Shown piece by piece: positions 24,980 through 27,886 of a DNA stretch of 35,003 bases (positions are counted from its first letter, which is position 1; every line of letters begins with the position of its first letter). The DNA lies in the IMG/VR virus record IMGVR_UViG_3300027734_000181, positions 1-35,003 of that record; one strand, 5' to 3'. The stretch is from a virus. The notes under the pieces were generated by a model, which saw nothing but the letters and a program-made list of their open reading frames with translations, was not told the DNA's origin and ran no database searches. Made by a program: the position numbers and the translations under genes.

Positions 24980-25351
24980 ATGAAGAATGTGCCAGATATT
25001 GATCAGGCGAAAGAGTTTCACGGCTACCTGATGAAGTGGCAGGAAATATTATCTTTGGGCGATTGGCGCATAGAGAGAGTTAATAAGATCGCCAAGGACG
25101 CAATGGCGTCAGTTGAGTTTGATCCACCAGCAAGGCTTGCGAGCTACAGGCTGGGGTCATTTGGCGGTGAAGAGATAAACAGCGCCAGCCTTGAGATGAC
25201 GGCGCTGCATGAGTGTTTGCACATCCTTTTACATGATCTTGTTGAGACAACGGCAGACAGGAATTCGACAGAAGAACAGCGAGAAATGGCCGAACACAGG
25301 GTTATCAATTTGCTTGAAAAACTTTTATTGAAAGACCATCATGGGCGGTAA
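24980..25351 (+). CDS. Small HExxH metallopeptidase-like protein
   Basis: A 123-residue protein with a zincin motif: L-H77-E78-C-L-H81-I-L-L-H85-D86, giving HExxH with a third His and an Asp in a short spacing. The N-terminal half contains a W-x-I-x2-V segment (GDWRIERVNK). I start it at ATG 24980, not the TTG at 24950, because the extension is AT-rich and lies in the upstream control region. Small phage proteins with this motif are often listed as putative metallopeptidases; the target is unknown, and the motif alone does not prove activity. The stop region overlaps the next gene by 11 bases. Confidence 0.78.
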   Translation: MKNVPDIDQAKEFHGYLMKWQEILSLGDWRIERVNKIAKDAMASVEFDPPARLASYRLGSFGGEEINSASLEMTALHECLHILLHDLVETTADRNSTEEQREMAEHRVINLLEKLLLKDHHGR

Positions 25352-26300
25352 AGCAGTTTATAGCGATCAAGAATTCATCGAGCTTTGGAATACTTACGAG
25401 TCAGGCAAGGCAATGGCAAAAGCCATAGGCATGGACTTGCGTAATATTCTGAGGCGCAAAAGCAATTTAGAAGCTAAGTATGGGCAGCAGCTCAAATCAA
25501 AAAACAATAAAGCTCAGACAATTACAAACAATTCAGCAAGAAAAGAATTGGGGATTGAGAATGGCGTTGTTATTGTTTTTAGTGATGCTCACTTCTGGCC
25601 TGGCATCCACACGACAGCGTACAAGGGACTTCTTTGGGCGATTAAAGAGTTTCAGCCAAAGGCTGTTATTGCCAATGGAGATGTATTTGATGGCGCTTCT
25701 ATCTCTCGCTATCCTCGCATTGGATGGGATTCAACGCCATCAGTAATCCAAGAGCTGAAAGCCTGCGAGATTGCTTTAGGTGAGATTGATGATACTGCCA
25801 AGAAAGCACGACACAATGTCAAGCTGGTGTGGACATTGGGAAACCATGATGCACGTTTTGAAAACCGACTCGCCTGCAATGCGCCGCAATATGAATTTGT
25901 AAAAGGCTTTTCGCTGAAAGACCACTTCCCGACATGGGAGCCATGCTGGAGCTGCTGGCCTACAGAGAATGTAACTGTCAAGCACCGCTGGAAAGGCGGT
26001 GTACACGCTACACACAACAATACTGTTAACGCTGGGGTCACAATCGTCACAGGCCATCTGCACAGCCTTAAGGTGACACCATTTGCTGACTACAACGGCA
26101 ACCGATTTGGCGTTGATACAGGCACTCTGGCAGAGACTGATGGACCTCAATTCATGAACTATCTAGAAGACTCGCCAACCAACTGGCGGTCAGGCTTTGC
26201 GGTACTTACGTTTCATGAGGGCAAGTTGCTATGGCCAGAACTAGTCCACAAGTGGGATGAGGGAAAGATTGAGTTTCGCGGGAAAGTTTACGATGTCTAG
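25341..26300 (+). CDS. Calcineurin-like metallophosphoesterase with N-terminal HTH
   Basis: A 319-residue protein. The first 50 residues contain a helix-turn-helix-like part (EFIELWNTYESGKAMAKAIG). The rest has all metallophosphoesterase signatures: FSDAHFWPG (D82-x-H84), NGDVFDG (113-117), LGNHDARFE (GNHD 167-170), VHATH (H222) and TGHLHS (238-241). The family uses two metal ions to cut phosphoesters in nucleic acids or nucleotides. The gene stands alone with the peptidase-like gene between two minus-strand groups, so it is probably an early gene. The substrate is not clear. Confidence 0.88.
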   Translation: MGGKAVYSDQEFIELWNTYESGKAMAKAIGMDLRNILRRKSNLEAKYGQQLKSKNNKAQTITNNSARKELGIENGVVIVFSDAHFWPGIHTTAYKGLLWAIKEFQPKAVIANGDVFDGASISRYPRIGWDSTPSVIQELKACEIALGEIDDTAKKARHNVKLVWTLGNHDARFENRLACNAPQYEFVKGFSLKDHFPTWEPCWSCWPTENVTVKHRWKGGVHATHNNTVNAGVTIVTGHLHSLKVTPFADYNGNRFGVDTGTLAETDGPQFMNYLEDSPTNWRSGFAVLTFHEGKLLWPELVHKWDEGKIEFRGKVYDV

Positions 26301-26436
26301 CTGGCTAATTGCGCTTGTTGGACTTATATATCTAGGAATTGGCATAGATCAGATAAATAAAGGCCAATTTTGGATGGGCATTACATTCATAGGTTATTCA
26401 TTTAGCAATGTTGGCCTGTACATGATGGCCAAATAA
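26293..26436 (+). CDS. Small two-helix membrane protein
   Basis: A 47-residue protein (MSSWLIALVGLIYLGIGIDQ, then INKGQFWMGITFIGYSFSN and VGLYMMAK). Two hydrophobic helices are separated by a short polar turn with NKGQ. The ATG lies within the last codons of the phosphoesterase gene, 8 bases overlapping, with GGGAAAG upstream. I recall comparable short membrane proteins in phage genomes. A host-membrane target seems likely; no specific function can be given. The stop is next to the terminator stem that serves the opposite strand. Confidence 0.7.
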   Translation: MSSWLIALVGLIYLGIGIDQINKGQFWMGITFIGYSFSNVGLYMMAK

Positions 26437-26459
26437 AAAAGGGGGTGATTAGCCCCCTT
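26435..26459 (-). terminator. Intrinsic terminator for leftward acidic-protein gene
   Basis: A 7-base-pair stem AAGGGGG / CCCCCTT (26439-26445 with 26453-26459) with loop TGATTAG. Read leftward, it is followed by a run of six T (complement of 26435-26440). It lies a few bases past the stop of the acidic gene and also just after the stop of the rightward membrane protein, so it separates the convergent units. It lacks a T run in the rightward direction. Confidence 0.85.
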
Positions 26460-26464
26460 ACCTA

Positions 26465-26752
26465 TCACTCAATGCGTTCCCACACTGTCCCGTCTTCAGC
26501 GTAGTACCAGTCACCGATTTCGTACTCTTCATCTTCTTCAACTTCTTCAATTTCGTAGTCTTCAACTTCTTCATCGCACTGGTTGAATTCGTACTCCTCT
26601 GTTACGTCATAGTCAACGCACCATCCATGGTCTTTTTGGAATTCGATAAATTCTTGGATTATTGCGATCTTGTCAAAGTCATTTGTTTCAATGGTCACTT
26701 TTTCAGTTGATGACCAGTCATACTCGCCAACTTCAATTTCAATTTTGTACAT
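26465..26752 (-). CDS. Extremely acidic small protein (possible DNA mimic)
   Basis: A 95-residue protein beginning MYKIEIEVGEYDWSSTEK. I count 24 Glu and 11 Asp against 4 Lys and 1 Arg, so net charge is near -30. The acid residues are spread along the chain and peak in EEVEDYEIEEVEEDEEYEIG, with many aromatics between them. This charge and size recall DNA mimics such as Ocr, but no homology is claimed. The start at 26752 is set by AAAGGAG 9 bases upstream; the longer frame covers the promoter. The gene has its own promoter and its own terminator. Confidence 0.8.
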   Translation of the reverse strand: MYKIEIEVGEYDWSSTEKVTIETNDFDKIAIIQEFIEFQKDHGWCVDYDVTEEYEFNQCDEEVEDYEIEEVEEDEEYEIGDWYYAEDGTVWERIE

Positions 26753-26760
26753 ATTAAAAG

Positions 26761-26812
26761 CTCCTTTAATGGCACGATTGCCAATTAAAATCCTATCGCC
26801 AAATTGTGACAA
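26761..26812 (-). promoter_or_regulatory. Promoter, operator-like palindrome and RBS of acidic gene
   Basis: On the minus strand, -35 TTGTCA (26812-26807), a 17-base spacer and -10 TTTAAT (26789-26784), each one base from consensus; expected start near 26777. A perfect 5-4-5 palindrome TGGCA-CGAT-TGCCA (26770-26783) lies over the start site and could be an operator or an mRNA 5' hairpin. AAAGGAG (26767-26761) is the ribosome site. Confidence 0.8.
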
Positions 26813-26818
26813 GTGCAA

Positions 26819-27007
26819 TTATGAATTTTGCTTGCTAGGCTTGGCGTGAGAGTAAACAGTTACTTGCTGCTTAGACTCAAGTCCTATCTTGGCCTGCGCT
26901 GCCTGTCCCCATGCTCTACCTTGCGCTATTTGGCGCATTTCCTTATCTCTTGTCCAGATTGATGGTGTGCCGTCACGCCAGTCGAATGCGTTCTTCTTAT
27001 CATTCAT
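26819..27007 (-). CDS. Small early protein of unknown function
   Basis: A 62-residue basic protein (MNDKKNAFDWRDGTPSIWTR...). The ATG overlaps the stop of the upstream gene (ATGA), and AAGGTG is found about 14 bases before it, so translation probably depends on coupling. Segments DWRDGTPSIWTRDKEMRQIA and GRAWGQAAQAKIGLE are amphipathic. It is the last member of the overlapping chain of small leftward genes before the separately promoted acidic gene. No known motif is seen. Confidence 0.68.
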   Translation of the reverse strand: MNDKKNAFDWRDGTPSIWTRDKEMRQIAQGRAWGQAAQAKIGLESKQQVTVYSHAKPSKQNS

Positions 27008-27162
27008 TTGTTATTCACCTTAATCTCTTTCTGAATGCCTGCACTCATTTGCAGGAACATCCGCATCCACTTGATACCGCCAAGCCTTACATACTCAGCG
27101 TATTCTGATTGGGTGAGGCGCAGCGTGATAGCGCGACCCAGCTCTGTCTTCTCTTTCATCAT
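27004..27162 (-). CDS. Small RHH-like early protein
   Basis: A 52-residue protein: MMKEKTELGRAITLRLTQSE, then YAEYVRLGGIKWMRMFLQMS and a short Lys-rich tail. The beta strand AITLRLTQSEYAEYVRLGG followed by two helices resembles a ribbon-helix-helix DNA-binding fold, which would suit a small phage repressor, but the call rests on this pattern only. A ribosome site GAGG precedes the start at 27162; the start overlaps the stop of the membrane micro-protein upstream, and the stop overlaps the next ATG. Confidence 0.65.
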   Translation of the reverse strand: MMKEKTELGRAITLRLTQSEYAEYVRLGGIKWMRMFLQMSAGIQKEIKVNNK

Positions 27163-27266
27163 TCAACCTCAAAATTTAAAAGTACCCACACAAAGCAAAA
27201 CAACGTGATGATCATCACTGCCATGCCAAACAAAGCCATCAAGAAAAAAATTATTGCGGTTTGCAT
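27159..27266 (-). CDS. Single-helix membrane micro-protein
   Basis: A 35-residue protein, MQTAIIFFLMALFGMAVMII continuing TLFCFVWVLLNFEVE, which is almost entirely one membrane helix with a short acidic end. Its start lies within the end of the upstream gene (16-base overlap), and its stop overlaps the next start. Its place in the overlapping chain is the main support. It may act on the host membrane, for example in superinfection exclusion, but that is a guess. Confidence 0.6.
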   Translation of the reverse strand: MQTAIIFFLMALFGMAVMIITLFCFVWVLLNFEVE

Positions 27267-27361
27267 GGCTTGGCCTCACTTGGTGGTGTCCAGCCAAAGC
27301 GCCGCCAAGTGGCCTGCACATCAACAGGCTTGGGGGGTGGTGGTGTAGGTATTGGATTCAT
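27251..27361 (-). CDS. Pro-rich micro-protein
   Basis: A 36-residue protein: MNPIPTPPPPKPVDVQATWR followed by RFGWTPPSEAKPCKPQ. The Pro-rich start and the VQATWRRFGW-TPPSE pattern I recall as a recurrent short phage reading frame of unknown role. The ATG overlaps the stop of the coiled-coil gene upstream (ATGA), and the end overlaps the membrane micro-protein by 16 bases. Confidence 0.62.
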   Translation of the reverse strand: MNPIPTPPPPKPVDVQATWRRFGWTPPSEAKPCKPQ

Positions 27362-27627
27362 TTTTGCACCGCCAGTAGTTCCATCTCCGCGTCTTTAAGG
27401 CGGTCCTTAATGCACTTCATTTCGTAGTCGAGCTGATCGAGCTGGCGCTGCATACGCTCGCGCTGAAATGACTCGCCATGCGTCCAGCCAAGCACAGTGC
27501 CGCTAGTGATGGTCTTGCGGATGAGCTGTTCAACTTCATGTACGGCCATCAAGCGAATGCCTTGCTTGTTCGATGACATGAAGCGTTGCACCTCGGCGTC
27601 TATTTCGTCTTGCATTTTCTTAGACAT
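27358..27627 (-). CDS. Small coiled-coil early protein
   Basis: An 89-residue protein, starting MSKKMQDEIDAEVQRFMSSN at 27627, where AAGGAG stands 6 bases upstream; the longer frame lacks such a site. The C-terminal 45 residues (from about 44, QRERMQRQLDQLDYEMKCIK, continuing to LLAVQK) form a clear coiled coil, so the protein probably oligomerises. MAVHEVEQLIRKTITSGTVLG lies in between. No known family is recognised. Confidence 0.75.
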   Translation of the reverse strand: MSKKMQDEIDAEVQRFMSSNKQGIRLMAVHEVEQLIRKTITSGTVLGWTHGESFQRERMQRQLDQLDYEMKCIKDRLKDAEMELLAVQK

Positions 27628-27886
27628 GAGTATCTCCTTGGGGTTGAGGGTTTGACCAGGCATGAACTAACAGCGTGGCGTTGTAGGGGATCGGTGTGAT
27701 GGTAGACACAAACAGGCCCTTACCGCGCTGCTTGCGTCCCCATGCGTCTGTGGCATTGACATTCTTGATGTCACCGCGCTTGACGGCAGCGTAGACCTTG
27801 ACGCGCTCAAAGCCGCCATCCTCCAGCTCGGCCATGCTGCGCGGTTCTTGGCAGAAGTCTTGAAGGTCGGTCAAGACGACCACCAT
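27620..27886 (-). CDS. Small early protein of unknown function
   Basis: An 88-residue protein (MVVVLTDLQDFCQEPRSMAE...). The central part, SMAELEDGGFERVKVYAAVK followed by RGDIKNVNATDAWGRKQRGK, has the spacing of a small winged-helix domain (helix, helix, then a beta strand pair), but this is tentative. The stop overlaps the start region of the coiled-coil gene by 8 bases and its start overlaps the membrane protein gene upstream by 16 bases. A role in early host takeover is only an inference from position. Confidence 0.7.
   Translation of the reverse strand: MVVVLTDLQDFCQEPRSMAELEDGGFERVKVYAAVKRGDIKNVNATDAWGRKQRGKGLFVSTITPIPYNATLLVHAWSNPQPQGDTHV

Follow-up and report, generated by a model that had tools for sequence, protein, structure and literature searches.

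A small, highly acidic protein of an unrecognised family and its conserved promoter-like signature in environmental tailed phages

What is the role of a 95-residue phage protein with 35 aspartate or glutamate residues against five lysine or arginine residues, and how is its gene expressed? The question was raised by a 35,003-base virus record, analysed here at its full length (the window), which also encodes an SU10-type portal and an SU10-type major capsid protein. The original prediction described a self-contained unit of high early output, with a near-consensus promoter, a palindrome over the start site, a strong ribosome site and a dedicated terminator, and proposed that the product has the profile of a DNA mimic such as Ocr, other roles being possible. 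The open reading frame was borne out: it runs on the minus strand from an ATG codon at 26752–26750 to a stop codon at 26467–26465, and its product contains 11 D, 24 E, 4 K and 1 R (residues counted on the identical L002 protein), with a computed pI of 4.05 and a mass of 11.7 kDa. The features of the locus are as follows.

25341–26300, plus strand: metallophosphoesterase (PF00149 domain match), convergent to the acidic gene, without a promoter-like element in the window
26439–26459, minus strand: intrinsic terminator, hairpin and T-run (scan)
26465–26752, minus strand: coding sequence of the acidic protein, 95 amino acids (open reading frame, relatives, dN/dS)
26471–26518, minus strand: C-terminal beta-hairpin unit, residues 79–94, replaced or multiplied in some relatives
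26525–26599, minus strand: acidic, length-variable linker, about residues 52–76, of low confidence in the window model
26526–26573, minus strand: array of 9-nt repeats under the linker codons
26603–26752, minus strand: conserved N-terminal domain, residues 1–50, beta-beta-alpha (alignments and AlphaFold2)
26761–26767, minus strand: Shine-Dalgarno sequence AAAGGAG
26770–26783, minus strand: hairpin TGGCA-ATCG-TGCCA, where transcription is expected to start (sequence and relatives)
26790–26811, minus strand: promoter-like element TGTCA-N11-TAGGAT
26819–27007, minus strand: conserved same-strand open reading frame, ending 8 nt upstream of the promoter box

Three queries of the viral contigs of IMG/VR returned 46, 437 and 189 relatives of the acidic protein in overlapping sets. 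A working set of 178 loci, in which some contigs are present twice, was drawn from the matches listed and comprised 125 distinct proteins, 120 of them complete. The median dN/dS of a 31-codon core was 0.147 (648 pairs with moderate synonymous divergence; 112 distinct sequences). Because relatives occur in hundreds of viral contigs and show this low ratio, the gene lies far beyond chance; judged by its substitution pattern, it is real and under purifying selection. The 120 distinct complete members had a D/E content of 29.7–43.9%, a K/R content of 2.9–7.3% and a net negative charge of 20–55, and the stretch past residue 50 ranged from 26 to 87 residues, with variable content and its acidity kept. 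Seven positions (M1, D25, K28, F35, Q39, W44 and Y48 in L059 numbering) were invariant in 94 sequences, and K3 is conserved in the family along with K28.

Sequence searches of Pfam, PHROGs, PADLOC, NCBIfam and PDB gave nothing convincing for the family. The best PHROG (E=0.0042) and Pfam (E=0.0062) matches among 94 members, and a PADLOC match to JetB (E=0.00014) in two of the 94, were put down to acidic composition bias. In the GTDB species genomes, none of 139 pattern matches was a relative and no prophage copy was found. Among 50,697 records of deposited phages, tblastn with the window protein found none up to E=1, and an 82-residue consensus found none up to E=10; a 49-residue consensus gave only weak matches in 12 records, with a best E of about 1. 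In these tblastn searches, weak matches may be hidden by the low-complexity filter. Measured against the libraries searched, in which it is without a match, the acidic protein is a member of an unrecognised family, and it adds a library-absent protein family to the small set of phage polyanions. The literature searched for the promoter signature, the family or the phosphoesterase pair likewise held nothing naming them, which is not proof of their absence from print.

The AlphaFold2 model of the window protein had a pLDDT of 58.6, with residues 56–76 below 50. Since this first model was too weak, a relative with a short linker, L059, was modelled with 94 sequences. This second model had a pLDDT of 80.0, with strands at residues 2–7, 18–23, 70–72 and 78–80 and helices at residues 26–42 and 52–58, and was weaker beyond residue 42. 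As modelled, the architecture is a conserved beta-beta-alpha head of about 50 residues and an acidic linker of variable length, usually followed by a beta-hairpin. In the window protein, residues 52–78 are 63% D/E, and the 9-nt repeat array beneath the linker codons is the likely source of linker length change. The C-terminal hairpin, of the DWYYAEDGTVWERIE type, is swapped for TVSTYVITKIE in some relatives, and others carry tandem YDEETDAWYWYDEE-like units at their C-terminal part. In L104, L108, L124 and L129 this part carries tandem aromatic-acidic YVYDEETDAWYWYDEE-type units with the look of repeated beta-hairpins.

Structure prediction had been proposed as the check on DNA-mimic likeness, and it lent no support to Ocr-type rigid mimicry: the head is predicted as beta-beta-alpha, and the PDB structure search with the models gave no match at E<=0.001. 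No DNA mimic was listed among the fold matches of the L059 model, which were themselves weak. The Foldseek candidates in PDB, GB1-like folds, a de novo EEH design and unrelated proteins, had E values of 4 or worse and were rejected; VIA Z was at most 3.8 for this model and reflected common small arrangements. Furthermore, when all PDB chains were searched by phmmer (window protein) and by hmmsearch (profile of 94 sequences), no DNA mimic appeared up to E=10, a limit that distant kinship could escape. BFVD returned one uncharacterised phage protein, A0A6J5LQI9 (E 3.8e-3, 37% identity), which is probably a relative.

The near-consensus promoter of the original prediction proved not to be the conserved feature. 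A sigma-70 consensus scan of 25500–27800, under a rule requiring A at position 2 of the -10 element, gave no promoter site at the acidic gene. TTGTCA-N17-TTTAAT can be read by eye upstream of the gene; the relatives keep TGTCA-N11-TAnnnT, not TTTAAT. In its general form, xGTCA-N11-TAnnnT, this element was exact in 93 of 108 distinct 90-nt upstream regions (taken from those of the 178 rows with enough sequence, window included), had one mismatch in seven more and was absent from eight. Judged by reading the sequences, six of these eight precede an acidic gene that lies immediately behind a co-directional phosphoesterase gene. Within GTCA, 22 dissimilar representatives all had the G, the T and the final A, and 95% had the C; hexamer positions 2 and 6 were invariant; further upstream lay scattered conserved A/T positions and no -35-like hexamer at 17-nt spacing. 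The box is not a sigma-70 -35/-10 pair, because its 11-nt spacing is wrong against the 16–18 of such pairs.

A comparable distance is found in the middle promoters of phage T4, in which, according to PMC2988021, the MotA box, (a/t)(a/t)(a/t)TGCTTtA, lies 12 ± 1 bp upstream of the -10 element and replaces the -35 element. As the spacing of 11 resembles this distance, an activator that stands in for -35 contacts is conceivable and, by analogy, possible at xGTCA-N11-TAnnnT. Unlike the T4 promoters described there, the present box is xGTCA at a distance of 11 and is restricted to one or two genes. Upstream of the gene in L144 and L149, a variant, TTGACA-N11-CAAGAT, is seen by eye, followed by a hairpin; it suggests that the box could be a -35-like element in a shifted position.

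A strict scan for box plus hairpin found exactly one site in the window, at the acidic gene. In viral contigs, the long leader pattern of the window's clade had 69 exact matches, every one of them ahead of a family gene. At least one TGTCA box was matched in 19 of 20 whole records; most held one or two that fit the acidic gene or the phosphoesterase by sequence, the rest being chance-like, with hairpins tested in part. The AGTCA form was matched in seven of 10 further records. This regulatory signature is specific enough for non-coding DNA by itself to reveal the gene.

The predicted palindrome over the start site was confirmed: TGGCA-ATCG-TGCCA lies at 26783–26770, the position of the expected start. 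A hairpin of at least four pairs, three or more of them G-C, began 4–7 nt past the hexamer in 99 of the 100 cases with an exact or one-mismatch box, as against 4.7% of 5,000 dinucleotide shuffles. The arms comprised 22 different pairs with loops of 3–7 nt, such that the sequence changes and the position stays constant; pairs were counted directly rather than from an alignment, because MAFFT shifted stems with 4-nt loops out of register with those with 6-nt loops. If TAnnnT is the -10 element, the hairpin sits at +1, and the message would therefore begin with it. Structures at the 5' end of mRNA protect against RppH and RNase E, as PMC3997798 describes, and the present hairpin resembles such stem-loops in lying at the very 5' end. 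What sets it apart from those described there is that its position is kept throughout a phage gene family; its stabilising effect is predicted. Rfam gave no match in the window.

The strong ribosome site was likewise present (AAAGGAG at 26767–26761), and so was the dedicated terminator, a hairpin with a T-run at 26459–26439. Terminator-like hairpins occurred in 103 of 114 distinct downstream stretches of the family, compared with seven of 342 mononucleotide shuffles, and a called terminator was absent from the other 11. The claim that the unit is self-contained held in part. The gene has its own box, hairpin, ribosome site and terminator; however, read-through into it is possible in the window phage, because the open reading frame at 26819–27007 adjoins the box and no terminator was detected between the two. 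Conservation of the box, +1 hairpin and terminator in the relatives supports the claim of high output from a dedicated unit, the output itself being predicted and its early timing conjectural. The expression anatomy of the cassette is well supported by these signals: as far as sequence can tell, box, +1 hairpin, ribosome site, gene and usually terminator are kept together across two phage types.

These two types differ in their genome contexts. A phosphoesterase gene lay downstream and convergent within 1.5 kb in 121 of the 178 loci, and upstream in the same direction in seven. In this larger group, the acidic gene has the phosphoesterase and lysis genes as neighbours and in most cases runs antisense to them. 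In thirty-one loci the acidic gene comes immediately behind a co-directional major capsid gene, and 26 of these also have an HNH endonuclease gene convergent to it; four loci had the HNH gene only, and 15, many on short-ended sequence, had none of these neighbours. The capsid families differ between the two types (SU10_MCP versus Phage_capsid_4), whereas their portals share one PHROG family, so that some of the head genes may go back to a distant common ancestor. In L120 (7953–8791), L129 and other loci of the 61-kb type, the acidic gene directly follows the major capsid gene, and a free-standing HNH endonuclease gene is convergent with it. This endonuclease may be a means by which the cassette spreads. 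The contexts as a whole, including the boxless genes behind the phosphoesterase, are those expected of a mobile unit that carries its own signals. Portal relatives were found on two contigs binned with gammaproteobacterial and Pelagibacter MAGs, bins that do not name the host.

The same promoter-like element also precedes the phosphoesterase in many relatives; the window phosphoesterase is without it. Among 812 distinct 100-nt regions before other open reading frames, 34 contained GTCA-N11-TAnnnT, against a mononucleotide shuffle mean of 4.7, and 33 of the 34 preceded a phosphoesterase. A strict scan of all loci gave 136 distinct sites, of which 83 belonged to the acidic gene (three of these assigned by eye), 43 to the phosphoesterase and 10 lay elsewhere. 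At the phosphoesterase, the hairpin spans the GGAG of the gene and starts 2–3 nt past the hexamer, closer than at the acidic gene. In a separate set of 80 loci anchored on the phosphoesterase, 50 had the acidic gene, 23 were without it nearby (at least 700 nt examined) and seven were too short. The element stood before the phosphoesterase in 23 of 36 loci with a convergent acidic gene, in none of nine co-directional loci, in none of the 23 without the acidic gene and in five of the seven short ones; the upstream sequence was unreadable in five loci. Shared ancestry may explain this association, because the 23 loci lacking both the element and the acidic gene hold more distant enzymes. The phosphoesterases (25341–26300; relatives such as L069, 5551–6507) keep their metal-site motifs and, by eye, have the look of an N-terminal helix-turn-helix.

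Several traits of the cassette are those of phage morons, which, according to PMC7067206, have their own promoter, may lie antisense to lytic genes and vary in presence between phages. The acidic cassette has its own promoter-like box and terminator, occupies varied positions and is absent from some related phages; by its sequence organisation, it behaves like a moron. Morons are usually described there on prophages and as expressed in lysogeny, whereas no prophage copy of the cassette was found in GTDB species genomes. The presence of the gene in different phage types suggests a general benefit of the protein, most likely against a widespread host protein.

Among phage polyanions, the nearest in architecture is Gp44 (E3) of SPO1, a 27-kDa RNA polymerase inhibitor whose residues 56–122 are 57% D/E and whose head binds DNA and resembles Xis, as described in PMC8208478. 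Both proteins place a disordered, extremely acidic segment after a folded N-terminal domain, and the idea of a DNA-like polyanion applies to both; the likeness is one of architecture only, not homology. The acidic protein is smaller, at 11.7 kDa, its acidic beta-beta-alpha head contrasts with the DNA-binding Xis-like head of Gp44, and no sequence kinship to that head appeared among the PDB chains searched. T7 gp5.9, an inhibitor of RecBCD, is likewise a small, highly acidic phage protein and acts by substrate mimicry; unlike the strands and helix of our models, it is a parallel coiled coil (PMC9836394). The architecture of the acidic protein thus resembles SPO1 Gp44 more than the helical Ocr, with no fold match in support of either. 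By every sequence test run, the protein is no member of the Ocr or Gp44 families, and it may be like Gp44 in its working.

We tentatively favour the reading, drawn by analogy and given somewhat less than an even chance, that the acidic protein, encoded in an accessory cassette, joins a folded, specific head to a Gp44-like architecture and serves as a polyanionic decoy for some nucleic-acid-binding protein of the host. The cassette, a self-contained unit of moron type in environmental tailed phages, is very probably transcribed independently, and its 5'-terminal hairpin, if it acts as RNA, probably shields the message from 5'-end-dependent decay; independent transcription and hairpin protection would together yield abundant product. 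The beta-beta-alpha head might then select the target, and the flexible extension, acidic and rich in aromatic residues, might fill the nucleic-acid-binding surface of a host protein, for which RNA polymerase, a nucleoid protein or a defence nuclease are candidates. Against this, conservation of K3 and K28, together with the strong conservation of the core, suggests a specific interface, in which case charge may not be the active principle.

The DNA-mimic idea itself is plausible by analogy. The original proposal of an Ocr-type mimic, a compact fold with carboxylates arranged like the phosphate path of B-DNA for an early block of restriction or similar defence enzymes, stands as far as size and composition go: T7 Ocr (gene 0.3) has 116 residues, 34 acidic and six basic (PMC4872106), and both are small phage proteins, about one third acidic, with few basic residues. 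Rigid mimicry is not favoured by the models. Ocr forms a dimer of invariable shape and is mostly helical, with about 60% helix, whereas L059 is modelled as a beta-hairpin and helix with an acidic extension, whose counterpart in the window protein has low model confidence; neither phmmer/hmmsearch against PDB chains nor the structure search matched the protein to Ocr. Because the part past residue 50 varies so widely in length, a flexible polyanion fits better than a shaped copy of B-DNA, and we consider the Ocr-type mimic improbable. The same low standing is given to a structural or assembly role as an abundant head-decoration, chaperone or packaging protein, whose acidic tail would keep capsid subunits or DNA-binding virion proteins soluble. 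A virion role also fits the 61-kb type, in which the gene belongs to the head cluster and comes behind the capsid gene, and strong late-type output and the dedicated terminator would agree with it; in the larger group, however, the gene lies beside phosphoesterase and lysis genes, its own promoter would be superfluous behind a capsid gene, and in the four deposited genomes opened the acidic gene was not annotated beside the phosphoesterase.

The shared element and its association with the convergent acidic gene could instead mark a co-regulated pair in which the acidic protein is a partner or inhibitor of the metallophosphoesterase and shields the sites at which the enzyme binds phage or host DNA. 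This is improbable, given the 31 capsid-type loci without a phosphoesterase within 1.5 kb, the window phosphoesterase without the element and the possible common descent of the association. The palindrome, for its part, could act as DNA, as an operator bound by a repressor, and not as an RNA hairpin; the unit would then be switched rather than simply stable. Its two-fold symmetry at the start site is in keeping with an operator, and among distinct arm pairs the non-Watson-Crick changes were five G-U and two C-A, a weak preference that does not decide between RNA and DNA. Arms that differ wholly between groups while the box is constant, loops of changing length and the occurrence of the exact palindrome only once in the window argue against an operator, which we regard as unlikely.

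A wider reading is possible though rather doubtful: xGTCA-N11-TAnnnT with its +1 hairpin would be a promoter class absent from the papers searched, read in the manner of MotA by a factor standing in for the contacts of sigma region 4. Each phage would keep it for one or two genes, the new-family polyanion and, in many, the metallophosphoesterase, as a movable co-regulated module of host takeover or counter-defence. Upstream of the acidic gene, the minus strand between 26819 and 28367 carries a run of small open reading frames of 62, 52, 101, 88 and 104 codons' worth of amino acids, several of which are conserved in relatives.
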